Positions 5,127 through 52,275 of a stretch of DNA of 52,275 bases are shown one piece after another. The notes under the pieces are model-generated. The model was not told the DNA's origin and did no database searches. It was given only the letters and a program-made list of their open reading frames with translations. Each line of letters begins with the position of its first letter. Position 1 is the first letter of the stretch. Origin of the DNA: Thermus scotoductus DSM 8553 (lineage in GTDB: Bacteria > Deinococcota > Deinococci > Deinococcales > Thermaceae); contig NZ_KB905740.1 in the NCBI RefSeq assembly GCF_000381045.1, positions 1 through 52,275 on the forward strand, in the 5' to 3' direction. The translations under genes were made by a program, and so were the position numbers.

Positions 5127-6260
5127 GTGTTTTCGGGTTTTAGCAAGCTATTCAAACCCCGCGTGGAGGCGCTGGGCCTGGAGATCGGCGCCGCCAACCT
5201 AAAGCTGGTGGAGCTCTCCGGAAATCCCCCCGCCCTCAGAGCCCTGGCCACCCGGCCCACTCCCCCAGGAATGCTGGTGGAAGGGGTGATCGCCGAACCC
5301 CAGGCCCTGGCCCAGGAACTTAAGGAACTTCTCGCTGAAGCCCGGACCAAAAAGCGCTACGTGGTGACTGCCGTGCCCAATCCCAGCGTGATCCTGCGCA
5401 CCCTTCAGGTGCCCAAGATGCCCCTCAAGGAGATGGAGGAGGCGGTTCGCTGGGAAGCGGAGCGGTACATCCCCTTCCCCATTGACGAGGTGGTCCTGGA
5501 CTTCGCCCCCCTGGATCCCCTGGCCGAGGTAGCCGATGGGGAGCAGGTGGAGGTCATGGTGGGGGCCGCCCGGCAGGAAGCAGTGGCCTCCTTGCTGGAA
5601 GCCCTGCGGGGAGCAGGTCTGACCCCCATCATCTTGGATGTGAAGCCCTTTGCCGGGCTTTATCCCCTGGAAGCCCAGCTCAGCAGCGACCCGGAAGGGG
5701 TTTCCGTGGCCGTAGAAATCGGGGCAGAAAGCACCAGCCTGGTTCTCCTTAAGGGAGACCGTCCCTTGGCGGTGCGGATCCTCACCCTCTCCGGCAAGGA
5801 CTTCACCGAAGCCATCGGGAAAAGCTTTGGCCTGGACTTCCTCACCGCCGAGGAGGTGAAGCGCACCTACGGCCTCGCCGCCATCCCCACCGAGGACGAG
5901 GAGCTTCTTCTGGACTTTGACGCCGAGAGGGAGCGGTACAGCCCCGCCAAAATCTACGATGCCATCCGGCCCATCCTGGTGGAACTCACTCAGGAGATCC
6001 GTCGGAGCCTGGAGTTTTTCCGCGTGCAACTGGGTGACATACAGCCGAAGGTAGGGTACCTCTACGGCGGGGGAAGCCGGCTTAGGGGCCTGTCCACCCT
6101 GCTTACCGATACCCTGGGGGTCAACTTCACCGTCCCCGACCCCTGGCAGGGCATCCAGGTGGATCCCAGGCGCTTTGACCTGGACAAGATCAAGGAGATG
6201 GGACCGGAGTTTCTGGTGCCCGTGGGCCTGGCCTTACGGGGGGTGATGCCCCTTGATTAG
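5127..6260 (+). CDS. pilM: Type IV pilus assembly protein PilM
   Basis: 377 residues. PilM is an actin-like (FtsA-type) cytoplasmic protein that binds the N-terminus of PilN and anchors the alignment complex. The actin-fold phosphate motif GLEIGAANLKLVEL is at about residues 17-30, VEIGAESTSLVLL near 200, and the GGGSRLRG motif near 316. The GTG at 5127 is chosen because AAGGAGG lies 4 nt upstream. It is the first gene of the operon. In T. thermophilus PilMNOWQ are needed for piliation, twitching and natural transformation. Confidence 0.95.
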   Translation: MFSGFSKLFKPRVEALGLEIGAANLKLVELSGNPPALRALATRPTPPGMLVEGVIAEPQALAQELKELLAEARTKKRYVVTAVPNPSVILRTLQVPKMPLKEMEEAVRWEAERYIPFPIDEVVLDFAPLDPLAEVADGEQVEVMVGAARQEAVASLLEALRGAGLTPIILDVKPFAGLYPLEAQLSSDPEGVSVAVEIGAESTSLVLLKGDRPLAVRILTLSGKDFTEAIGKSFGLDFLTAEEVKRTYGLAAIPTEDEELLLDFDAERERYSPAKIYDAIRPILVELTQEIRRSLEFFRVQLGDIQPKVGYLYGGGSRLRGLSTLLTDTLGVNFTVPDPWQGIQVDPRRFDLDKIKEMGPEFLVPVGLALRGVMPLD

Positions 6261-6876
6261 GCTTAACCTTCTCCCCAAAAACCTGCGCCGCCGCATTGAA
6301 CCGGGTTGGTGGCGCCTGGCGGCGGGGGCCTTTGCCCTGCTGACCCTTTCCTTTTTGGGCTTTCTCCACTACACCGCCTACACCGAACTTACCCTGGCCA
6401 AGCAGGAAAGGGATGCCCTGAAAGCTGAGGTAGAGGCCCTAAAACCCTTTATTGCCGAACAAAACCGCCTGGTGCAGGAGAGGAAGGCCCTCGAGGCCCT
6501 CCTCGCCATCCGGGAAGGCCTTAAGAAGAACTTCGTCCCCTGGTCCGAGTACCTGGCGGCCTTTATCCGGCAAATCCCCCAGCAAGGCGGACGCCTCCCC
6601 GTGGCCCTGCGCTCCGTGGGTACCCGGGCCATTCCCGAGGACGAGGCTAACCGGATGGCTCAAGCCGGGACCTATGATGGCAAGAAGGTGCAGGTGGAGT
6701 TCACCGTGCAGGGGGAAGCCCTGAACCAAAACGCCCTGGTGAACTTCGTGCGGGCTTTTGAAACCTCACCCCGATTCGGCATAGAGTTCCAGGGGGCTTC
6801 CCTGGACCCGAACCGGGGGCTTTATACCTTCAGCGCCCGGGTGGGCCTGGTGGGAGGTGGGGAAAGTGCTCGCTAG
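6253..6876 (+). CDS. pilN: Type IV pilus assembly protein PilN
   Basis: 207 residues. The very N-terminus IRLNLLPKNLR matches the conserved PilM-binding motif of PilN (xxINLLP). One membrane helix follows at about 22-42, then a coiled-coil segment around 45-80 and a periplasmic ferredoxin-like domain. The start is a TTG at 6253 that overlaps the pilM stop by 8 nt. PilN pairs with PilO in the inner membrane. Confidence 0.92.
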   Translation: MIRLNLLPKNLRRRIEPGWWRLAAGAFALLTLSFLGFLHYTAYTELTLAKQERDALKAEVEALKPFIAEQNRLVQERKALEALLAIREGLKKNFVPWSEYLAAFIRQIPQQGGRLPVALRSVGTRAIPEDEANRMAQAGTYDGKKVQVEFTVQGEALNQNALVNFVRAFETSPRFGIEFQGASLDPNRGLYTFSARVGLVGGGESAR

Positions 6877-7489
6877 ACTTGGACAGCGGGAATGGGCCCT
6901 GATCGCCATCGCCCTCACCTTGGTGGTGGCCCTCCTCTGGTACTTCCTCCTCATCGTCCCCATACGCCAGGAAACGGAAAGCGTGCGCCAGGAGATCAAC
7001 GCCCTTATTCCCGAACGGGATAAAGGAAGGCAAGCCCAGCGCGCCCTTCCAGAACTCCGGGCCACCATCGCTGAGCTACAAGCCGAGCGCCAAGCCTTTC
7101 TGAGGGCGCTTCCCAAGGAGGAACGGCTTTCCCAGGTTCTGAACGAGATCCTGACCGAAGCCCTAAGGAGCGGGGTCACGGTGCGTTCCTTCACCCGCTC
7201 CCCCACCTCGGCCCCGGTGCCGGAGGTGCGGGCGCTTTCCCTGGCCCTTTCCCTCGAGGCCCCCTTCCCCGAAACCTACGCCTACCTACAGCGTCTGGAA
7301 GGGCTTTCCCGCTTCAGCTCCATCTCCGGGCTGAACCTGAGCGTCCAGGGTCAGGAGGTTAACCCAAGCCTCAACACCAGCCTGACCCTCACCCTCTACG
7401 TTCTGGCCAAAGACCTAGGCCAGTCTGAAGGAACCACAAAGACGCAAGCAACCCCATCGCCGCAAACAGGCCAAGGAGGTGGTCGGTGA
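6857..7489 (+). CDS. pilO: Type IV pilus assembly protein PilO
   Basis: 210 residues. A short cytoplasmic tail, one membrane helix (about 14-36), a coiled coil (about 38-85) and a periplasmic domain, as in PilO. The start GTG at 6857 lies inside the end of pilN; another GTG at 6866 in the same frame is possible. It forms heterodimers with PilN and links the inner-membrane platform to PilW/PilQ. Confidence 0.9.
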   Translation: MGKVLARLGQREWALIAIALTLVVALLWYFLLIVPIRQETESVRQEINALIPERDKGRQAQRALPELRATIAELQAERQAFLRALPKEERLSQVLNEILTEALRSGVTVRSFTRSPTSAPVPEVRALSLALSLEAPFPETYAYLQRLEGLSRFSSISGLNLSVQGQEVNPSLNTSLTLTLYVLAKDLGQSEGTTKTQATPSPQTGQGGGR

Positions 7490-8439
7490 AAGCCCTTCTA
7501 GCGCGCCTGGCCACGGCTTGGCGCAACCTACCCCAGTCCACCAAGCTCCTCCTGGCGGGCCTTCTCCTGGTGAGCGCCGTGGCGCTTTGGTATGTGGGTT
7601 TCTACCTGCCCACCCAGGCGCCCATGGAGGTGCAACCCACCCCCGGCCAACCTCAGGTGCCCAGCCAGGGAGCGGAGGCTCCCAAGGCCATAGAAGCCCC
7701 ACCCATCCCGCCCCTTGCCGAAACTGCCCCCCAAGACCAAGCGGTGAAGCCTAGCCCCGAGGCTTCTCCTTCCCAGAAAGCCCCTAAAGCAGGCGAGCCC
7801 GTCTTGACCACAGCCTTGCCCATCCCCAAAACGCAACAAGAGGCCCCGCTTCCAAACCCCTTTGTGCCCCTGGTGGTGGAAGCTCCACCTTCTCCCCCCG
7901 TGCCCTCCCCTGCCCCGGCACCTAGGCCCACCCCCGTACCCACAGGGGCCCCTGTCCGGGTAACCCAGGGAACACCCTTGCCCACCCCAAGCGTTCAAGC
8001 TTCACCCCGGCCTCTCCCGGGAAGCCAAGGAGCCCTGCCCGCTCCCAAGGTGCTGGCCACGGTATTGCAGGCGGAGGCCCCTAAGACCGAGCTGGGTGGA
8101 ACCCCACCCGTCCTCACTCCCCCGTCCGGGCTTGTGGAAACCCCGTTGCCGGTTCAGAAAAAAGAGGGGGAGAAGGCGGAACCCCCTCCGCCTCCCAAAA
8201 CCCCCTTGCAGACCCTGGTGGAGGAAAGGGGTCTCAAGCTAACCGGCACCCTTCTGGGTCCGGTGAGCGTGGCTATCCTGGAAAGCAAGGAGGGTTACTT
8301 GGTGCTACCCGTGGGTAGCCTTCTTCCGGGTAGCGAGGCGGTGCTTCGCCGCATAGAAAGCGACCGCGTGGTGTTGGCCTTGAAGGATGAAAGCCTTGAG
8401 ATTGTCCTAGACAGCATGCAAGCAGGAGGTGGCCAGTGA
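7486..8439 (+). CDS. pilW: PilW, proline-rich inner-membrane link to the secretin (Thermus type)
   Basis: 317 residues. One N-terminal membrane helix (about 20-42) is followed by a long Pro/Ala/Val-rich, probably extended region (about 45-240). A compact C-terminal domain follows (about 245-310, around KLTGTLLGPVSVAIL), resembling the PilP/GspC homology region that touches the secretin. The position between pilO and pilQ is that of pilP in other bacteria. In Thermus this gene is called pilW and is required for PilQ complex formation. The GTG start overlaps the pilO TGA by 4 nt. Confidence 0.88.
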   Translation: MKALLARLATAWRNLPQSTKLLLAGLLLVSAVALWYVGFYLPTQAPMEVQPTPGQPQVPSQGAEAPKAIEAPPIPPLAETAPQDQAVKPSPEASPSQKAPKAGEPVLTTALPIPKTQQEAPLPNPFVPLVVEAPPSPPVPSPAPAPRPTPVPTGAPVRVTQGTPLPTPSVQASPRPLPGSQGALPAPKVLATVLQAEAPKTELGGTPPVLTPPSGLVETPLPVQKKEGEKAEPPPPPKTPLQTLVEERGLKLTGTLLGPVSVAILESKEGYLVLPVGSLLPGSEAVLRRIESDRVVLALKDESLEIVLDSMQAGGGQ

Positions 8440-44169: not shown

Positions 44170-44607
44170 TCAGGGAATGGCTTCCGGGGAAAGGGGCAGG
44201 GGAATGAGATCCAAGCCCAGGCGCAACACCCCCACCACCCGCCCCCGGTGGAGGACAAAACAGCGGTACCCCTCCGGCAGGACCAGCACCCGCCGGGCCA
44301 GGGAAAGCTCCCGCAGGAAGAAGAAGGGGCGCATCCGCATGGGCTTACCGCGGATGGGGCCCATGTAGGGCATGGGCCTGCCCCCCTCGAGGGCCAAGAG
44401 AAGCAGGGGCCTCTCCCCCACCGCTTGGCCCAGGACCAGGACCAGGGTATCCCCTTCCCGGTAGAGGGCCTGGACCTCGAGGGTCCGCACCACCTTAAAG
44501 CACTGGGTCAGCACCTCTTCGGGCGAGGGGCCAAAGCCCTTGGGGCCCTCCTCCCCCAGGGCCCAGCCCCCGAGGGCCAGGAGGAGGGAGACCCCAAGCC
44601 ACCGCAT
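44170..44607 (-). CDS. Exported protein of unknown function
   Basis: 145 residues from ATG 44607. A signal peptide (about 1-17, LGVSLLLALGGWALG) is followed by a small beta-rich domain with VQALYREGDTLVLVLGQAV and LVLPEGYRCFVLHRGRVVG. Two cysteines (near 37 and 117) could form a disulfide. I recognise no family. The frame opens 15 codons further upstream, but ATG 44607 gives the signal peptide and has GGGAAGG before it. It lies after the signalling operon, separated from it by a large hairpin at 44682-44708. Confidence 0.7.
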   Translation of the reverse strand: MRWLGVSLLLALGGWALGEEGPKGFGPSPEEVLTQCFKVVRTLEVQALYREGDTLVLVLGQAVGERPLLLLALEGGRPMPYMGPIRGKPMRMRPFFFLRELSLARRVLVLPEGYRCFVLHRGRVVGVLRLGLDLIPLPLSPEAIP

Positions 44608-44681
44608 CCTTCCCAGTTTGACCGATCTGGCCTTGTACCCCTTCTCGCCCATATCCGTCCCGGGATGGGGTTAACCAGGGT

Positions 44682-44708
44682 CCCCACCCTGGCCTGGCCA
44701 GGGTGGGG
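44682..44708. terminator. Large GC hairpin after the Met/His-rich protein gene
   Basis: CCCCACCCTGG (44682-44692) pairs perfectly with CCAGGGTGGGG (44698-44708), 5-nt loop, starting 6 nt beyond the minus-strand stop at 44714. No T-run. It probably ends the signalling operon or protects its 3' end. Confidence 0.55.
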
Positions 44709-44713
44709 TGGGC

Positions 44714-45292
44714 TTAGAAGCCCCGCTCCGCCGAGATCAGGGCCAAGGCCGCCCGGGCCAACAGGAAGGCCCGTCCGGGCTCCTTGGAAAGCCTATTCTT
44801 GGCCTCGGCCACCAGATCCTTCACCAGGCTGTCCTGGGCCCGGTAGTAGGCGAGCTCCTTCTCCGCCCGGTCCACCACACTCGGGACCCGCTGGGTCAAG
44901 CGGGCATCCGGGCCCGGCCGCCCCTTACCCCACGGGGCAAAGGCATGGCCCCTGGGTCCAAAGGGATGGTGCATCCCCATCCCCATACGGGGGGCTGGCC
45001 TCGGCCCCCGGGCCTGCACCTGGGGTTCCCCTGAGGCTGCCCGGAAAAGGAGAAGGGCGGCCTGGGCCTCCCGCGCCGCCTTGAAGTACGCCTTGGCCTC
45101 GTAGCTCTTCTCCGCCCGGGCCTTCACCTCCTTGGCCCAGGCGAGAAGCTTTTCCTCCCCCGTGGCCCCCTGGGCCACCGCCTGGAGCCTGGCCAAGGCC
45201 GCCGAGGCTACCGCCGCCTGCTGGTAATCCGTGCCTTGGGCCAAGGAAAGGCCCGCCATCAGGAGAACCAAACCCATGAGCACCTGTTTCAT
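44714..45292 (-). CDS. Secreted Met/His-rich protein at the end of the signalling operon
   Basis: 192 residues. A signal peptide (about 1-19, ending LSLAQ) is followed by a helical region rich in Ala, Lys and Glu (about 20-85). An unusual stretch RMGMGMHHPFGPRGHAF follows (about 102-118), then another helical part. Met-x-Met-x-Met-His-His spacing is common in periplasmic copper-binding segments, so metal binding is possible but unproven. GGAGGTGAT precedes the ATG. It follows the histidine kinase by 24 nt and could be the sensed or regulated component. Family unknown. Confidence 0.72.
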   Translation of the reverse strand: MKQVLMGLVLLMAGLSLAQGTDYQQAAVASAALARLQAVAQGATGEEKLLAWAKEVKARAEKSYEAKAYFKAAREAQAALLLFRAASGEPQVQARGPRPAPRMGMGMHHPFGPRGHAFAPWGKGRPGPDARLTQRVPSVVDRAEKELAYYRAQDSLVKDLVAEAKNRLSKEPGRAFLLARAALALISAERGF

Positions 45293-45316
45293 TCCCTATC
45301 ACCTCCGAACTGGAGG

Positions 45317-46621
45317 CTATTCCCTCTGGCTAAAGGGCGCATCGGGCGAAACCTTAAGGGAAGCCAAAGGCAGGTAGAGCCCCACCGCCGCCCCGTCCTG
45401 GTTGTCCACCCACGCCCTTCCCCCATGGGCCCGGGCCACCGCCGCCACCAAGGCGAGGCCCAGGCCCGTGCCCTTTCCCCCATGGACAAAGGGCTCCAGG
45501 ACCCGGGGCAAAAGCTCGTTGGGGAAGCCGGGCCCGGAGTCCACAAGCCAAAGCCAAACCCCCTCCCTGTCCCGCTGGATCCTGGCCTTAAGGGGAAGCT
45601 TCCCGTGGCGGCGGGCGTTGTCCAACACGTTTTCCACCGCCAGGGCGAGAAGCTCGGGGTCCGCCAGAACCTGGCCTTCCCCTTCCACCTCCAGGCCCCA
45701 TCCCCCCAAGAAAGCCCGCAGGTCCAGGGGGATGAGCCTGGAGGAGGTGGCCTCGAGGCGGGATAACCTGAGGAGCCCGGAGAGCAAAGCCTCCATCCTT
45801 TCCGCCTCCCGTAAGGCCCCGGCGAGGGCCCTGGGTTCGGGCTTGCGCAGGAGCACCTCCAAGTACCCCTTCAAGGCAGCCAGGGGATTGCGGAGCTCGT
45901 GGGAGGCATGGCGGGCAAACCGGCGGGCCGCCTCCTCCTTCTCGGAAAGCTCCCTAAGAAGCCCCCCCACCTGGGCCAGGCGGCTGTTCAAGGCCTCCAC
46001 CAAGGGCCTCAGTTCCGCCAGGCCCGGGTCGGGAAGGGGGCTTAGGTCCTCAGGCCGCCGGGCCTCCAGGAGGTTGGCCAGCTGCCCCAGGGGGCGCAGG
46101 GCCCAAGCGAGCCCCAGGGCGGAAAGCAGAAAGATGGCCAAAAGCACCCCTCCACCCCAGGTGGCGTAGAGGAGGAGAAGCCTCCGCCCCAGACCGGCGA
46201 CCCCCTCCAAGGGGACCGCCATGCCGAATCCTCCTTCCTCCCGGGGCAGGGCCACGTAAAGCACCCCCCGCCACACTCCCTGGTAGGCTCGTCCCTGAGC
46301 AAGGGCCTCGAGGAGACCAGGGGGAAGGTCGGGGGAGGGCACCTCGGTGAAGGCCACCCCCTTCTTCCCTATCACGAAGCCCGTGCCGCCCCCATAGACC
46401 TGGGCCAGGCGGAAAAGCTCAAGAAGAAGGGCCTCCTCTTCCTTGGGTCCCTCCTCCCCAAGGAGGTAAAGCCGGGTGTAAAGGGCCCGGCGCAGGTCCT
46501 CGCTGGCCGCTCCTTCCGCCTCCCTGGCGGAAAGAAAGGCCAGGGGCAGGGCCAGAAGCAAGAGGGCCAGGAAGAGAAGGGCAAAAAGCCTCCCCCTAAG
46601 GGAGGAAAAGGCGGTAGCCAT
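45317..46621 (-). CDS. Sensor histidine kinase
   Basis: 434 residues. Membrane helix 1 (about 10-30), a periplasmic sensor region (about 31-150), membrane helix 2 (about 152-172), a HAMP-like linker, then a HisKA domain with the phospho-accepting His in RHASHELRNPLAAL. The ATPase domain has the N box VENVLDNARRHG, G1 LVDSGPGFP and G2 GGKGTGLGLALV. The sensor region is about 120 residues with no recognisable fold. It overlaps the response regulator gene by 26 nt, so the two form a standard pair. Confidence 0.92.
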   Translation of the reverse strand: MATAFSSLRGRLFALLFLALLLLALPLAFLSAREAEGAASEDLRRALYTRLYLLGEEGPKEEEALLLELFRLAQVYGGGTGFVIGKKGVAFTEVPSPDLPPGLLEALAQGRAYQGVWRGVLYVALPREEGGFGMAVPLEGVAGLGRRLLLLYATWGGGVLLAIFLLSALGLAWALRPLGQLANLLEARRPEDLSPLPDPGLAELRPLVEALNSRLAQVGGLLRELSEKEEAARRFARHASHELRNPLAALKGYLEVLLRKPEPRALAGALREAERMEALLSGLLRLSRLEATSSRLIPLDLRAFLGGWGLEVEGEGQVLADPELLALAVENVLDNARRHGKLPLKARIQRDREGVWLWLVDSGPGFPNELLPRVLEPFVHGGKGTGLGLALVAAVARAHGGRAWVDNQDGAAVGLYLPLASLKVSPDAPFSQRE

Positions 46622-47249
46622 AGCCGCGCACCGTCTGGATGGGGTTGGGCTCCCCCAGGGCCTTCCTTAAGAGGGAGAGGTGCACCTCCAAGGTGGCGGG
46701 GTCCACCTCCTCCCCCCAGACCCTCAGCATCAAAGCCTCCTTGGAAAGCACCTCCTCCGGGGACTCCAGAAAAGCCTTCAGGAGGAGGAACGCCTTGGGG
46801 GGAAGGGAAAGCCTCCTCTCCCCCCGGAAGGCCTCCATGCGCCTGGGATAAAGCCTCAGGTCCTTGTAGGCCAAAACTTCCGGGGCCTCCTTCCCCCTAT
46901 GGGCGCGGCGCCAGAGGGCCTCGAGGCGGGCCAGGAGCTCGGAGAGGCTATAGGGCTTGACCAGGTAGTCGTCCGCCCCCTCCTTGAGGCCCTTCACCCG
47001 CCACTCCACCGCATCCAAGGCGGTGAGCATCAGCACGGGCACCTCCGAGCGAGCCCGGATATCCTTAAGCAGGGAAAAGCCATCTCTTTCGGGCAGAAGC
47101 ACGTCCAAAATCACCACCTCCGCCCAGGGAAGGAGGCTTAGGGCTTCCTTTGGGCTTTCCGTGGCCTTGACCTCGTGCCCCTCGAGGGAAAGCCCAAGCT
47201 CCAAGGCCTCCCGCACTCCTGGGTCGTCCTCTACCAGAAGCACCCTCAT
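46596..47249 (-). CDS. OmpR-type response regulator
   Basis: 217 residues. The receiver domain (1-115) has acidic pocket VEDD, phospho-Asp in VILDVLLPERDG, switch Thr in MLTAL and Lys in YLVKPY. The C-terminal winged helix (about 125-217) has RLSLPPKAFLLLKAF and HLSLLRKALGEP, with the recognition helix before RGYGYRLF. ATG 47249 is chosen because it forms an ATGA overlap with the kinase gene upstream. Targets are not visible. Confidence 0.92.
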   Translation of the reverse strand: MRVLLVEDDPGVREALELGLSLEGHEVKATESPKEALSLLPWAEVVILDVLLPERDGFSLLKDIRARSEVPVLMLTALDAVEWRVKGLKEGADDYLVKPYSLSELLARLEALWRRAHRGKEAPEVLAYKDLRLYPRRMEAFRGERRLSLPPKAFLLLKAFLESPEEVLSKEALMLRVWGEEVDPATLEVHLSLLRKALGEPNPIQTVRGYGYRLFLP

Positions 47250-49201
47250 GCCGGGTTCCGCCAAAGGGCCAGGGCCCGCACGGGGGCGTACACCTCCAAG
47301 GGCGGCAGGGCCTCCCCGGTCTTCAGGTCTATGCGATGGATGCGGCTCGCCCCGCGCCTGGCCGCATAGAGAATGCCCCCAAAGGGCAGAAGCTCCACCA
47401 GGCTCATGCGGTCCTCCCCCTCCAACAGGGGCAGGGTGTGGGAGGCGAGAAGGGATCCCGCCAGATCCAGCACCCGCACCTTGGCCGCCTCCACATCGTA
47501 GAGGTAAAGCCTCTCCCCCTCCACCCCCACCCCACCGAGAAGCCTCAGCTCCTCGCTTTCCTTGGAACGGCGGAAGGCATAACGGGAAAGGTAGCGCCCA
47601 TCCAGGGCCAGGCGTTGCACCTGGCGGTTGCCGTAGTCCAGGACGAAAAGGAACTCCGGCGTGGCCGCCAGGGCCTTGGGATCCTGGAAGGTGCCCCGGC
47701 CCGGCCCCTGGCCGCCAAAGCGCTCCTGGTACTGCCCCTTCAAATCGAGCCGGCTCACCGTGGCGGTCTCCGAGTCCAGGACAAACAGGCTACCGTTGGC
47801 CACCGCCAGGGCCGCGGGAAAGAGGAACTCCCCGGGCTTCATGCCGTAAGGCCCGGCGGAAAGGAGGTGCTCCCCTTCCGGGGAAAAGCGGTGAAGGAGC
47901 TTGGCCCCGTGCTCAAAAACCGAGATCCAGATGCCCCCCTCCCCATCGGCGGCCACGGAGAGGGGAGGGGCCGGGAAGTAGCCCGGACCGGAGCCAATGC
48001 CGGAAAGGAGCCGGGCAGCGGTACCGGAAAGGTCCAGAAGCCGCACCGTGCCCTTCTTGGCCTCCACCCCCAACAGCAGGTAGAAGGGGTGGGGCAGGCC
48101 CCGCTCCTCCTCCCAGGAGGCGGAAAGGCCCCGGATCACCTCGTCCAAGGACGGGCGCTTGGCTGGGTCCTTCTCCAGCATCTTCAAGACCAGGTCGGAA
48201 AGAACCTGGGGAATCTGGGGATTGAGCTGCTTAGGAGGGGTGGGCACCTGGAAGATCTGCTGGTGAATCACCGTCTCATACCCCCCGGTGAAGGGGGGCT
48301 GGCCGGTGAGGGCCTCGTAGAGAACGATGCCCAGGGAGTAGATGTCCGAGCGGTGGTCCAGCTTCTGGCCCTTGGCCTGTTCCGGGCTCATGTATACCGG
48401 AGTGCCGATGCGGGCACCGGTGATGGTAAGGCGGGTGAGCACCTTGCCGGCGGCGATGCCAAAGTCCATGAGCCGCACCCCCCTGGGGTCCACGCCATCC
48501 TCCTTGAGGGCCCCTTTGAGCACCATGATGTTCCCCGGCTTGATGTCCCGGTGGACGATTCCCTGGGCGTGGATGTGCTTAAGGGCATCGGCCACCCGGG
48601 CGAGGATGGCTGCCGCCTGCTTCAGGGAAAGGCGCCTTTCCTCTATAAGCTTGTCCAGACCCTCCCCCTCCAGGTACTCCATGGCGATGAAGTGCACTCC
48701 ATCCACCTGGCCATGGTCGTAGACCTTAACAATGTTGGGATGGTCCATCTTGGCCAGGACCTCCGCTTCCCGGTGGAAGCGGCGCACGAAGCGGGGGTCG
48801 CCCACAAAGCGTTCCTGGGGAACCTTGAGGGCCACCAGGCGGCCGGTTTTCCTATCCTTGGCCTTGTACACGGTGGCCATACCCCCCACGCCCACCTTCT
48901 CCAGGATCTCGTACTGCTTCTCCAGAGCCCGGGCCTCCTCCGTGGTCTTGGAACCGGAGGAAGCCCGTCCCTGGGTACGGGAACGCCTTTGGACCCTCCG
49001 CCGGGGACCCAGGTAGACCCGGGGTGAGGCCAGCAGCCCCAGGCCCATAAGCAGCCAGGGGAAAACCACCTCCGCCCGGGCCCCCGTGGCCCAGGCGGCT
49101 CCCGAGAGGAGGAGCAGGAGGAACCATAGGGCCCACGGGGAAAGGCGGGAAGCCAGGGCTGCGGTGAGGAGAACCAGGAGGAAGGCCAGAAGCCCCTGCA
49201 T
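47246..49201 (-). CDS. Membrane Ser/Thr protein kinase with NHL-like beta-propeller
   Basis: 651 residues. Three N-terminal membrane helices (about 3-70). A Hanks-type kinase (about 95-360) has glycine loop VGVGGMATVYKA, Lys in VALKVP, catalytic HRDIKPGNIM, DFG in RLMDFGIAAG and the APE-equivalent MSPEQAKG. Then come six or so repeats of about 45 residues typical of NHL/beta-propeller domains (about 375-645). Unlike PknD-type kinases, the propeller appears to lie on the same, cytoplasmic side as the kinase. ATG 49201 overlaps the phosphatase stop (ATGA). Confidence 0.9.
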   Translation of the reverse strand: MQGLLAFLLVLLTAALASRLSPWALWFLLLLLSGAAWATGARAEVVFPWLLMGLGLLASPRVYLGPRRRVQRRSRTQGRASSGSKTTEEARALEKQYEILEKVGVGGMATVYKAKDRKTGRLVALKVPQERFVGDPRFVRRFHREAEVLAKMDHPNIVKVYDHGQVDGVHFIAMEYLEGEGLDKLIEERRLSLKQAAAILARVADALKHIHAQGIVHRDIKPGNIMVLKGALKEDGVDPRGVRLMDFGIAAGKVLTRLTITGARIGTPVYMSPEQAKGQKLDHRSDIYSLGIVLYEALTGQPPFTGGYETVIHQQIFQVPTPPKQLNPQIPQVLSDLVLKMLEKDPAKRPSLDEVIRGLSASWEEERGLPHPFYLLLGVEAKKGTVRLLDLSGTAARLLSGIGSGPGYFPAPPLSVAADGEGGIWISVFEHGAKLLHRFSPEGEHLLSAGPYGMKPGEFLFPAALAVANGSLFVLDSETATVSRLDLKGQYQERFGGQGPGRGTFQDPKALAATPEFLFVLDYGNRQVQRLALDGRYLSRYAFRRSKESEELRLLGGVGVEGERLYLYDVEAAKVRVLDLAGSLLASHTLPLLEGEDRMSLVELLPFGGILYAARRGASRIHRIDLKTGEALPPLEVYAPVRALALWRNPA

Positions 49202-49956
49202 CACTCCACCCGTAAGGCCACGGCGGTGACGTTGTCGTCCCCACCCCGGCGCAAAGCCTCGGCCAGAAGGCCCTCGAGGCTCGCCTGCAGGTCCTTGCCC
49301 AAGACCCACTCCTCCTCGGGCACCAGGCCGTAAAGCCCATCCGTGACCAAAAGCACCCCTTCCCCAGGGGCAAGGTGCACCTCCTTCAGGTCAAAGCGGG
49401 CCTCGGGCAAACCCAGGGCCCGCGTGAGGATGTTGCGGTAAGGGTGGTGCTCGGCCTCCGTGCGGGTAAGAACCCCTTCCCTCAAGCGCTCCGCCACCCA
49501 GGAGTGGTCCTCGGTGAGCCGTTTCAGCCCCTTTGCCGTGAGGTGGTAGGCCCGGGAGTCCCCGATGTGCCCCACCACCCCCTCCTTGAGCCAGTCCGCA
49601 TAGAGGAAGGCGGTAAGGGTGGTGCCCATGCCCTTCTTCCCAAGCCTTTCCGCCTCCTTCTCCACCCGCCTGGCCGCCAGAGTGAAGGCCTTTTCCATCA
49701 CCTTGGAGAGGCCCACCGCTGGCCGGCCTCCCTTCAGGTGCTCCGCATAGGCCCGCGCTGCCTCGGAAATAGCCTCTATGGCCACCTTGCTGGCCCACTC
49801 CCCTGCCTCCATCCCCCCCATGCCGTCGGCCACCGCCAGGAGGAGGAGGTTACCCTGGGGGACCTCGAGGCGCATCACCCGGTGGAAGTCCTCGTTGTTC
49901 TGGCGGCGGCCCACATGGGAGACCGCGGCCACGCTGTACCGGGGAGCAAGGCGCAT
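49201..49956 (-). CDS. PP2C-family protein phosphatase
   Basis: 251 residues. PPM motifs with the metal-binding acids: RRQNNEDFH, ADGMGGMEAGE, GTTLTAFLY, GHIGDSRAY, LLVTDGLYGLV and GGDDNVTAV. It should reverse phosphorylation by the kinase encoded next. ATG 49956 is 7 nt after a consensus TATAAT (minus strand), which decides the start over ATG 49965. First gene of the phosphatase-kinase-regulator-sensor operon. Divergent from the large unknown gene. Confidence 0.92.
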   Translation of the reverse strand: MRLAPRYSVAAVSHVGRRQNNEDFHRVMRLEVPQGNLLLLAVADGMGGMEAGEWASKVAIEAISEAARAYAEHLKGGRPAVGLSKVMEKAFTLAARRVEKEAERLGKKGMGTTLTAFLYADWLKEGVVGHIGDSRAYHLTAKGLKRLTEDHSWVAERLREGVLTRTEAEHHPYRNILTRALGLPEARFDLKEVHLAPGEGVLLVTDGLYGLVPEEEWVLGKDLQASLEGLLAEALRRGGDDNVTAVALRVE

Positions 49957-49963
49957 CGGACCC

Positions 49964-49971
49964 ATTATAGT
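49964..49971. promoter_or_regulatory. Shared -10 region of the phosphatase operon and the divergent gene
   Basis: The octamer ATTATAGT reads TATAAT on the minus strand (49964-49969, 7 nt before ATG 49956) and TATAGT on the plus strand (49966-49971, 9 nt before GTG 49981). The gap between the start codons is 24 nt. Confidence 0.6.
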
Positions 49972-49980
49972 GATGAATGG

Positions 49981-51726
49981 GTGGAGCACCTGGCCGACCT
50001 GGTGGACCTCTACGAGTACCGGGTGGAGGACCTGGCCGCAGGCCGCACCCCTAAGGGGGGGAAGAGGGCCCTTTTGCAACTGAGGGCCTTCCTCATCCAA
50101 ACCCGCCTGCCAGGGCCCTTGGCCAAGCGCTTCCGCCAGGCCGATGCTCGCTTCAAAGCCCTGCGGCAAAGCCCGAACCCTCCCCCACCCGTAGAGACCC
50201 CTTCCCCGGACTTTCCTGCCCAGGCCTTGGAGCACCTGGAAGAACCCACCCCCAAGCCTTCCCCCTTGCGGGCCATCGCCTTAAAGGTGTGGCACCTCCT
50301 GGCAGAGCGGGAGGCCAAAGCCCGGGCCAAGGACCTTCTGACGGGGAGGCGGGAGGAACTCAGGCTCATCCACGCCTTCTTGCAGAACTACCTGGAGTAC
50401 CGGGAAAAGGAAACCTTCAAGCGGGACTTCAACCTCTCCCGCTTCCACCCCACCCACCCCATCCCCTCTCTTTCCGATAGCCTCATGGACCTCGAGGACC
50501 CCAAGGTGGCCGAGGCCCTGGTGATGGAGTTTTTGGAAACCGCCCTGCACCTTCCTCAGGACCTTCCCCTGCCCCCTGAGGAAACCCGCACCTACATCCG
50601 CCGCTTCCTGAACCGCATCCTGGAGTGGGACGACGCCTACGGCCTTCCCCCCAAGCGGGACCTCATGCCCTTGAAAAAAGCCCTGGAGGAAGCCAAGCGT
50701 CTGGGGGCAAGCGCCCTGGAGATTGCCAGGCTGGAAGAACGCCTCAGGAAAGAGGCCCAGGAGGAAAGGCGGCGGGAACTCCTCTTGGAAGAGGAGCGGC
50801 GCCGCTTCCGCGTGGCCCTGGAAAAGGTCATCGCCCTCCTGAACCTGCTTCCCACCCCGCAAGGGGAAACCCCCTGGCCCCGGGTTCCCGAGCCCGGCCA
50901 GGGGGAGGAAAGCCTGGTTACCCTTCCCCTGAAGCCCGGCCGCATCGCCTTAGGACCCCTTACCCTCACCCTAAGCCAGGTGGAGGGTAGCTGGCACCTG
51001 GGGATGGCAGGCGAGGACCATGTCCTGGAGGACACCTTGGTGATCCCTTGGGAGGACCTCGAGGTCCTGGCGGTGCGGGAGAGGGATCTCCTCCACCTGA
51101 GGCTCGAGGCCCGAAGCGGAATCAGGCTCTACGAGCTCCTGGCCGAGGGGCGGATGCTAGCCCTCCTCCTAAGCCCCAACCAGGACTACATCTACCTGCG
51201 CCTCCTCAGGGCCCTTTATGCCCGATTGAAGGGGGAGTTCAGCCCCCAGGCCTTTGGCCCCGAGCTGGCGGAGAAGTACCGCCAGGCCCCCTGGGAAGCC
51301 CTGCAGGACTTCGCCCGCAAGGTTTTGGAGCTCGCCCTGAAGCGCCTGGGTGGGGCGGACCCCACCCCCCTCCTCAAGGAGGTGGGCCAAGCCCTGGGGC
51401 AGGAGCGGGAAGCCCTGGTTTTGGCGGAGGCCTTAAGGGAGTACCTGGGCCGCCGCCCCCCCACCCGGGAAACCCTGGGGGGGGAAGTGCACCTGCTTTC
51501 CATCGGGGCCGAGCCCCTGGCCCTCAAGGTGGGGCAAACCGTCCTCTCCCTGCGCCCCAGGAACGCTCCTTCTGGAGACCTCCAGGAGGACGTCCTTTAC
51601 GTGGGCCAGGCGGGCGAGATACCCCAAAGGCTCAAGGACCTTCTGGTCTACCGCCTCTCTGAAGGAACCGTGATCCTGGCCCGAGAGGGAAGGCGGCTTG
51701 CGTACCTGGTGATGGAAAACCCTTGA
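49981..51726 (+). CDS. Large cytoplasmic protein of unknown function
   Basis: About 581 residues from GTG 49981; the frame is open further left, but that part is antisense to the phosphatase. No signal peptide or membrane segment and no cysteine. The N-terminal 200 residues are helical and rich in Leu, Glu and Arg. A strongly charged coiled coil follows at about 235-285 (ARLEERLRKEAQEERRREL). The C-terminal half has alternating strands (GRIALGPLTLTLSQVEGSWHLG) and helices, ending in LAYLVMENP. I recognise no family. The divergent position next to a PP2C/kinase operon, with a shared -10, suggests a linked role, perhaps as substrate; this is inference. Confidence 0.75.
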   Translation: MEHLADLVDLYEYRVEDLAAGRTPKGGKRALLQLRAFLIQTRLPGPLAKRFRQADARFKALRQSPNPPPPVETPSPDFPAQALEHLEEPTPKPSPLRAIALKVWHLLAEREAKARAKDLLTGRREELRLIHAFLQNYLEYREKETFKRDFNLSRFHPTHPIPSLSDSLMDLEDPKVAEALVMEFLETALHLPQDLPLPPEETRTYIRRFLNRILEWDDAYGLPPKRDLMPLKKALEEAKRLGASALEIARLEERLRKEAQEERRRELLLEEERRRFRVALEKVIALLNLLPTPQGETPWPRVPEPGQGEESLVTLPLKPGRIALGPLTLTLSQVEGSWHLGMAGEDHVLEDTLVIPWEDLEVLAVRERDLLHLRLEARSGIRLYELLAEGRMLALLLSPNQDYIYLRLLRALYARLKGEFSPQAFGPELAEKYRQAPWEALQDFARKVLELALKRLGGADPTPLLKEVGQALGQEREALVLAEALREYLGRRPPTRETLGGEVHLLSIGAEPLALKVGQTVLSLRPRNAPSGDLQEDVLYVGQAGEIPQRLKDLLVYRLSEGTVILAREGRRLAYLVMENP

Positions 51727-51767: not shown

Positions 51768-52004
51768 ATGAAAGTTTTGGGGCACAAAGCCTTTGCCCGG
51801 TTAATCCTCTCCTACCTGGTTTCCCAGGCGGGGAGCAAGGTACACCGGGTGGCCCTCCTGGTGCTGGTCTATTTGCTCACAGAAAAGGCCCTTTGGGTTT
51901 CCTTGGTCCTGGGAGTCCAGCTTGTGGGCACCGTGGTCTTCTCCCCCCTCCTTTCTGCCTGGGCTGATACCCAGGACCGCAAGCGGCTCCTGGTGTGGTC
52001 CTGA
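51768..52004 (+). pseudogene. MFS transporter, N-terminal fragment cut by an IS element
   Basis: 78 codons remain. The start KVLGHKAFARLILSYLVSQ, two membrane helices and the loop SAWADTQDRKRLLVWS match the first two helices and motif A (GxLaDrxxRrxx) of major facilitator proteins. A full protein would have about 400 residues. The frame meets a TGA at 52002-52004, exactly where the sequence changes to a more AT-rich segment preceding an IS607-type transposase gene. It must be inactive unless the rest continues beyond the window after precise excision. Confidence 0.8.
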
Positions 52005-52032
52005 TACCGGTTGCCAAAGTTGTGGTCTGTTA

Positions 52033-52061
52033 TTGACGTCTATCCTCTTCTGTGTTAAGGT
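52033..52061 (+). promoter_or_regulatory. Promoter of the IS607 transposase gene
   Basis: TTGACG (52033-52038), 17-nt spacer, TAAGGT (52056-52061). A GGAGAGA lies before the GTG at 52080. Confidence 0.5.
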
Positions 52062-52079
52062 AAAGGCGGAGAGATAGGG

Positions 52080-52275
52080 GTGAAGCTGTCCCATTGGGCC
52101 AGAAAGCACGGGATTCCCTACCGCACCGCCTGGAAGTGGTTCAAGCAAGGGATTCTGCCTGCCAGGGCCATCCAGCTACCCACGGGCACCATCCTGGTTC
52201 TTGAGGAAGAGGAAGAGGTTAGGCTCCCCCAGGATGCTGCGGCCATCTACACCCGGGTCTCGGTGCACGAGGCCA
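52080..52275 (+). CDS. tnpA: IS607-family transposase TnpA (serine recombinase), partial
   Basis: The first 65 residues are present. An N-terminal MerR-like helix-turn-helix (KLSHWARKHGIPYRTAWKWF) and the short wing LPTGTILVLEEE are followed by the beginning of the serine-recombinase domain, AAIYTRVSVHEA, whose Ser is the expected nucleophile (IYxRVS motif). This domain order, DNA-binding first and catalytic second, is that of IS607 TnpA. The gene continues outside the window. Confidence 0.85.
   Translation, partial: MKLSHWARKHGIPYRTAWKWFKQGILPARAIQLPTGTILVLEEEEEVRLPQDAAAIYTRVSVHEA

Follow-up and report, generated by a model that had tools for sequence, protein, structure and literature searches.

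The window analyzed here is the whole stretch of 52,275 nucleotides (nt) of contig NZ_KB905740.1 (positions 1 to 52,275) of Thermus scotoductus DSM 8553; in the assembly used, with 84 contigs and a total of 2.07 Mb, it is contig C12. Towards its end, a run of genes on the minus strand codes for a PP2C-type phosphatase, a Ser/Thr kinase with a propeller domain, an OmpR-type two-component system and two secreted proteins. The features of this locus, in the direction of reading, are:

49964-49969, minus strand: TATAAT element, probable promoter of a leaderless operon, 7 nt 5' of the PP2C ATG
49201-49956, minus strand: PP2C-type Ser/Thr phosphatase (Pfam PP2C_2, E 2e-16; NCBIfam Stp1_PP2C, E 2.2e-54 and 184 bits, under the cut-off of 230)
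47246-49201 (ATG 49201, TGA 47248-47246), minus strand: membrane-anchored PknB-class Ser/Thr kinase with a C-terminal six-bladed NHL propeller (Pfam Pkinase, E 1e-55)
46596-47249, minus strand: OmpR/PhoB-type response regulator (Pfam Response_reg, 1.2e-23; Trans_reg_C, 1.3e-18)
45317-46621, minus strand: sensor histidine kinase (Pfam HisKA, 7e-16; HATPase_c, 5e-17)
44714-45292, minus strand: secreted protein of 192 amino acids with a duplicated three-helix unit and a C-terminal Arg-Gly-Phe, proposed accessory protein of the sensor (a profile family, no Pfam family)
44173-44604 (alternative start ATG 44652), minus strand: small secreted protein, present or absent together with the orthologue of the sensor histidine kinase in other-genus genomes of the family

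An earlier note on this DNA had described the first five genes as one operon, with overlaps of 4-26 nt among the first four. Five genes on a single strand in this order were borne out by reading of the genes and by Pfam. The overlaps were confirmed for kinase and regulator (4 nt) and for regulator and sensor (26 nt); phosphatase and kinase genes share 1 nt (TGATG), or 4 nt if the GTG directly 5' of the ATG is the start. The phosphatase frame most likely starts at 49956 rather than at 49971. Sensor and secreted gene do not overlap but are separated by a 24-nt gap, and GGAGG is located 5' of the ATG of the latter. Within the window, 16 of 39 same-strand pairs of neighbours overlap, 3 of those 16 in the locus, as counted with our own simple gene caller and with the PP2C gene added by hand. 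Since overlap is that common, it is by itself no evidence for an operon.

Regulator and sensor constitute a two-component system of the OmpR/PhoB type, with a receiver and a winged-helix domain in the regulator and HisKA and HATPase domains in the sensor (Pfam). The 25 named NCBIfam subfamilies shown for each of the two proteins (PhoB, CopR, CreC and others) all scored below their cut-offs. Hydropathy of the sensor revealed two hydrophobic helices (about residues 4-35 and 148-178) with a domain of about 110 residues in between.

Gene order and separate histories of two signalling units

Loci around 58 orthologues of the kinase gene were fetched and searched with the proteins of the window; loci are numbered L and genomes G in the following. 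Searches at the level of phylum, class and order covered the same 111 genomes. Genomes of the same genus contain a full-length kinase of 78-98% identity, and ribosomal protein L13 of the window's genome has its best match in L13 of Thermus thermophilus ribosome entries of the PDB. A PP2C gene upstream of the kinase gene and on the same strand was found in 52 of the 58 loci (all except L074, L075, L086, L087, L088 and L090). The complete order phosphatase, kinase, regulator, sensor and secreted protein was found in the window and in 25 of the 58 loci, namely 24 of the same genus (L035-L057 and L092) and one of a sister genus (L058). Gene-order conservation, suggested earlier as a check on the operon, thus extends over the genus and one sister genus. 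Counted by genome, the full order is present in 25 of 27 same-genus genomes, that of the window included. The remaining two are G021 (87% complete), in whose locus L091, dropped from the regulator comparison, the kinase is broken and just part of the regulator is present, and G025 (65% complete), which is without a fetched locus.

Spacings of -1 or -4, -4, and -26 or -32 nt recur across the 24 same-genus loci, with starts set by similarity to the window proteins. The sister genus retains the order with altered spacings (-4, +11, -11 and +23) and at 58-73% protein identity. Regulator, sensor and secreted genes were found 3' of the kinase gene in none of the 32 loci outside the genus and the sister genus (L059-L090), the stretch fetched on this side being 2.5-7.1 kb long in 31 of them and 746 bases long in L073. 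Judged from these comparisons, conservation, unlike overlap, exceeds chance expectation, and contiguous genes with an order conserved in genus and sister genus support the operon layout. A limited check of the literature returned no title on this operon.

Some loci deviate. The secreted gene of L044 is frameshifted. In L045 (G020), the C-terminal end of the sensor shifts to another frame compared to its relatives, by a frameshift or a sequencing fault. One frame of L091 (8592-9308, G021) contains the regulator start and the small secreted protein, which looks like a deletion of the regulator end, the sensor gene and the secreted gene, or maybe an assembly fault. In other genera of the family, a peroxiredoxin-like gene follows the kinase gene in L059 (AhpC-TSA, E 6.8e-24) and, by similar start sequence, in L060 and L063.

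Upstream of the PP2C gene, TATAAT (10 rows) or TATACAAT (13 rows) is present in 23 of 26 aligned rows, the exceptions being L051, L055 and L058. A scan of 44500-50100 for the sigma-70 consensus returned no promoter-like site, the TATAAT at 49969-49964 included; hence, this element falls below the rule of that scan. Because spacings and order are conserved and a TATAAT element precedes the PP2C gene, a single transcript for the five genes is likely. A strong GC hairpin without a T run is located 3' of the secreted gene in the window and in L036, L037, L038, L043 and L058, its stems being different, and the next gene follows the secreted gene after 0-11 nt in 11 of 25 loci. Another hairpin, at 46612-46588, was considered as a conserved attenuator and rejected, as its fold is different or weaker in L050, L051, L053, L055, L056 and L058.

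Across the loci examined, phosphatase and kinase genes appear as one old unit and the genes for regulator, sensor, secreted and small secreted protein as another, and the two are joined solely in the genus and the sister genus. An orthologue of the sensor (47-53% identity) occurs in 18 of the 22 genomes of the family outside these two genera, and in none of them does it adjoin the kinase gene. Both genes are 10-14 kb apart in G030 and G033; elsewhere, the sensor gene lies far off or on another contig. A regulator orthologue was found beside the sensor in all 15 places fetched from the 18 sensor-bearing genomes. Furthermore, the small secreted gene comes directly after the sensor gene or one gene later in G031, G027, G067 and G037, and an AddB-like exonuclease gene lies just past it in G031, G027 (with one opposite-strand gene between) and G067, as in the window.

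G042, a genome of another family, contains the unit in full: regulator (8160-8870 of L208), sensor (6642-8012), secreted gene (5797-6561) and small secreted gene (5216-5635) are arranged as in the window, and the kinase gene is 46 kb away. The secreted protein matched its profile with E 9.1e-21 and the small secreted protein with E 3.7e-5 (first profile) and E 9.7e-12 (second profile). As the complete order exists there away from the kinase gene, the four-gene unit is probably older than its join to phosphatase and kinase.

Of the 22 family genomes, 18 contain both the sensor and the small secreted protein and the other four (G032, G069, G070 and G074) lack both, which has a chance of 1 in 7315 under an independence of genomes that does not hold. 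The four genomes lacking the sensor have retained the kinase; G068, G076 (84% complete) and G078 (92% complete) have retained the sensor and gave no kinase at E<=1e-58. These independent losses argue that the units do not depend on each other in those genomes. Of the places fetched, L210 gave no gene calls and was unused, and L213 contains a different pair.

Next to the locus, a divergent gene starts near the PP2C gene (49975-51726). It had no convincing match in Pfam or NCBIfam, and a gene of similar size and start sequence occupies this place in most of the family loci compared. Within 51768-52275, a transporter-like frame is cut off after only 78 amino acids, and from 52080 to the contig end there is a frame that resembles part of an IS607-type element. 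In relatives such as L058, this transporter-like gene beside the locus codes for about 400 amino acids; the state of the window looks like an insertion.

Kinase topology and the secreted protein family

The kinase is of the Hanks type (PknB class), with K126, H217-R218-D219 and D246-F247-G248 invariant in 31 aligned orthologues. PknB is its nearest solved kinase both by sequence (PDB) and by model (Z 33.7, root-mean-square deviation 1.5, 255 residues). An AlphaFold2 model obtained with 7 sequences (mean predicted local distance difference test score, pLDDT, 81.3) consists of helices at 2-17, 22-39 and 43-58, a loose stretch, the kinase domain at 85-361 and the propeller at 373-648. The latter is an NHL propeller by its match to TRIM71 NHL (E 2e-23); family scores were weaker (ScyF_NHL, E 5.7e-11, under its cut-off; Pfam NHL, E 0.0014, 19 bits against a cut-off of 20). 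From the strands of the model, six blades can be counted, the first of which is completed by the last strand. The structural search with this model was filled by kinase rows covering 89-366 and carries no information on the propeller; PknD sensor was not among the 16 PDB sequence matches of the propeller at E<=0.1, which excludes nothing.

Kinase domain and propeller are linked by 11 residues without a hydrophobic stretch, and the maximal 19-residue hydropathy was 1.24 in 57 orthologues; in the survey of membrane helices across the orthologues, the start of L079 was called too late, so that its helices were missed, and L091 is broken. An Arg-rich sequence after the third helix would, by the positive-inside rule, place kinase and propeller in the cytoplasm. 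The propeller is thus predicted to lie on the kinase's side of the membrane. This agrees with the earlier note, which had placed both domains on the same side, unlike those of PknD, and corresponds to the succession of three N-terminal helices, kinase, 11-residue link and propeller. As no membrane helix separates kinase and propeller, the protein is not a PknD-type receptor kinase. Neither is it a PASTA kinase (Stk1/PknB): NCBIfam PknB_PASTA reached 315 bits against a cut-off of 450 with the kinase part alone matched, and the propeller replaces PASTA. Apparently, a kinase-propeller protein need not be a receptor for outside signals.

The 192-residue secreted protein had no Pfam match at E<=5, a single NCBIfam match of 16 bits against a cut-off of 159, and only a short designed protein as PDB match (E 0.72). 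A profile built from 21 members gave 46 matches corresponding to 45 genes in 37 of the 111 genomes, and 42 of the 45 genes are located beside a two-component regulator-sensor pair, in two layouts. Fused operons account for 26 genes (the window and 25 loci). In 12 of the 13 loci L181-L193, the gene lies 5' of a paralogous regulator-sensor pair with one to three small genes between, L184 being situated at a contig end. Six further members were found, four with a pair (L208, L214, L216 and L217), one fused to a sensor remnant (L215) and one partial match without a pair (L218).

Reading of the second layout (L181-L193, L214, L216 and L217) gave the order secreted protein, one to three small genes, regulator and sensor. 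One of the small genes codes, by appearance, for a PepSY-like secreted protein, its copy in L181 being without a Pfam match. In L215, a single frame (605-1522) joins the secreted protein with the C-terminal portion of a histidine kinase, as if the intervening genes had been deleted.

Arg-Gly-Phe forms the C-terminus in 42 of 44 copies read (38 of 39 plus 4 of 5), the exceptions being the broken L044 and L215; this count covers 44 of the 45 copies, with L218 left out. The protein is duplicated internally, as its two halves can be aligned over 62 columns (P 2.5e-6, probability 89%). Modelled as a single sequence, the mature protein (mean pLDDT 67.8) shows three helices, a loose linker and again three helices. 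The signal sequence ends with SLAQG and is without a lipobox Cys; the protein is thus not a QseG-like outer-membrane lipoprotein. For the alignment of the family, the distant members L184, L187, L192 and L193 were called without the signal region, and L044 was omitted for its frameshift. In sum, this family is associated with two-component systems, has a conserved C-terminus and is represented in neither Pfam nor NCBIfam.

Weighing of the explanations

From the genes, their order, its conservation and the separate histories described above, we consider it rather probable that the locus arose by operon fusion of two old signalling units and comprises an accessory secreted protein, a docking propeller and a shared promoter. 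The first unit would consist of the PP2C phosphatase and the PknB-class kinase. Three N-terminal helices would anchor this kinase in the membrane, and its six-bladed NHL propeller, located in the cytoplasm, would probably serve partners or substrates there as a docking platform. The second unit would consist of the OmpR-type regulator, the histidine kinase and the two secreted proteins; the 192-residue protein most likely acts on the outer face as an accessory of the sensor, in the way QseG does for QseE, and Arg-Gly-Phe would form the contact. One promoter before the PP2C gene would probably serve both units in Thermus-like bacteria and so tie their amounts. Fused and unfused versions of the same proteins in one phylum represent a natural experiment on whether operon fusion creates cross-talk.

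Several points weigh against this explanation. Within the operon, a weak internal promoter may be present, and the terminator-like hairpin with a T run at 46612-46588 lies inside the regulator/sensor overlap. The topology was taken from hydropathy and from a model whose membrane part has a pLDDT of 54-69; hydropathy reaches 1.6-1.9 inside the propeller of some orthologues (residues 458-478 and 576-594), which we read as propeller strands. A member of the secreted family was found beside this sensor neither in any of the 18 other-genus sensor-bearing family genomes nor in G037; in those 18 genomes, secreted members adjoin a paralogous pair or none is present. Its lack beside this sensor in all 18 slightly lowered our confidence. 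Furthermore, sensor gene and small secreted gene are not neighbours in most g4 genomes. Finally, 42 of the 45 genes of the secreted family are from related genomes and represent about three separate settings (two layouts and one distant family), and the accessory role was derived from gene neighbourhood.

Alternatively, both units may have met by chance in a compact genome, sharing a promoter without functional meaning and being kept together by the stable gene order of the genus. The high share of overlapping same-strand pairs in the window (16 of 39) is consistent with this, and the downstream exonuclease gene, found within the fetched stretch of 21 of the 25 linked loci, indicates that local order is generally stable. 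However, the sister genus (L058) retains the join despite altered spacings, the exonuclease gene was not found in its stretch, and all 24 same-genus loci (L035-L057 and L092) retain the join as well. Chance juxtaposition is conceivable on these grounds, and we would not call it probable.

The secreted protein had been described earlier as Met/His-rich and as a possible output linked to the signal. It could be a periplasmic chaperone or metal binder induced by the regulator, with no sensor as its partner, and in line with this it is helical and exported, and its gene comes after that of the sensor in the window. Roles of this kind are combined in CpxP-, Spy- and ZraP-like proteins. A relation to these proteins was sought without result, as there was no Pfam match at E<=5, no NCBIfam match above cut-off and a best Foldseek match of E 0.3 on a weak model; the lack of a family match speaks against an output of this kind. 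Moreover, the Met/His-rich stretch is a variable linker between the helix triplets: residues 76-145 contain 0-3 Met and 0-4 His in near members and 0-2 of each in 13 distant members. Metal binding was rejected, as Met and His are not conserved. In addition, the second layout places the secreted gene before the regulator gene. Thus, the output was not supported as proposed; the protein goes with two-component pairs, and an output without a sensor partner is possible, though the evidence leans the other way. Given its gene neighbourhood, the secreted protein most likely assists the sensor on the outer face. Tentatively, it may even represent a new class of accessory proteins for two-component systems, as their type member: a duplicated three-helix unit whose free C-terminal Arg-Gly-Phe would touch the outer domain of the sensor, or be freed or hidden by envelope stress, and so set sensor activity. 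Operon fusion in Thermus-like bacteria would then have connected this system to a kinase whose propeller faces inward.

True cross-talk was also proposed, in which the kinase would phosphorylate regulator or sensor on Ser/Thr, PP2C would reverse this and the operon would work as one circuit, as PrkC/PrpC do on WalR. Retention of the order across genus and sister genus at 58-73% protein identity and the invariant catalytic residues in 31 aligned kinase orthologues favor this proposal. Lys102 of WalR is presumably the conserved receiver lysine. Kinases of this class modify OmpR-type regulators elsewhere, and PrkC of Bacillus subtilis phosphorylates WalR on Thr101, just before Lys102 (PMC4478028). 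In the regulators compared here, however, Val precedes the conserved Lys98 in all 18 unlinked proteins and in 25 of 26 linked ones, the exception being L058 with Ala; all 44 thus have Val or Ala at the position of Thr101. Ser/Thr occupies each of six columns in at least 90% of 25 linked regulators; five of these columns are Ser/Thr in 94-100% of 18 unlinked regulators, and the sixth, Ser101, is Ser also in the unlinked L208 and L209. A kinase footprint in the regulator was rejected, since none of the six columns is specific to the linked group; this comparison is a weak negative and would miss a site common to both groups. Among the residues of the sensor, Thr3, Thr49, Thr154, Ser287 and Thr385 occur more often in the linked proteins than in the 17 unlinked ones, from which no conclusion is drawn; Thr3 is encoded where sensor and regulator genes overlap. 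Relatives with unlinked pairs, named in the earlier note as evidence against its claim, make up all 32 other-genus loci (with 746 bases only for L073), and of the 22 other-genus family genomes, three have the sensor without a kinase orthologue and four the kinase without the sensor. With units that are unlinked and lost independently and no linkage-specific Ser/Thr, cross-talk between the joined units was not supported; it is unproven, and we regard it as unlikely.

Comparison with known systems

PknD and Mbk, which we take to be one protein, are treated together in this comparison. PrkC/PrpC and WalRK of B. subtilis likewise combine a PknB-class kinase and a PP2C phosphatase with an OmpR-type regulator and its sensor (PMC4478028). 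Kinase input to the regulator was shown for PrkC and WalR but is only proposed for the system of the window; PrkC has a PASTA sensor outside, whereas the NHL propeller of the window kinase is predicted to be inside (PMC4478028). Furthermore, the Thr101 site of WalR is absent from the window regulator, and the window genes are arranged in an operon-like run.

PknD (Mbk) of Mycobacterium tuberculosis resembles the window kinase in having a Hanks kinase followed by an NHL-type six-bladed propeller; a membrane region between both places the propeller of PknD outside, whereas in the window kinase the helices come first and nothing hydrophobic lies between (PMC1262709, PMC6213207). NHL-repeat and PQQ-repeat kinases of Deinococcus radiodurans were noted in 2005, one of them with three NHL repeats after the kinase domain (PMC1262709), and RqkA (DR2518) interacts with pyrroloquinoline quinone (PQQ) and acts in radiation resistance (PMC11007091). 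These proteins share the combination of kinase and C-terminal propeller in a related lineage (PMC1262709, PMC11007091); RqkA is described by PQQ motifs (PMC11007091), whereas the window propeller matches NHL models. No Deinococcus could be recognized among the 111 genomes searched.

The QseG-QseE-QseF system also has a regulator, a sensor and a secreted accessory protein in one cluster, and QseG activates the sensor QseE by binding it with its C-terminal region (PMC12691602). As a lipoprotein, QseG resides in the outer membrane (PMC12691602), whereas the window protein has an ordinary signal peptide without a lipobox Cys. The likeness of the two would be an analogy in the way of working, not a relation.

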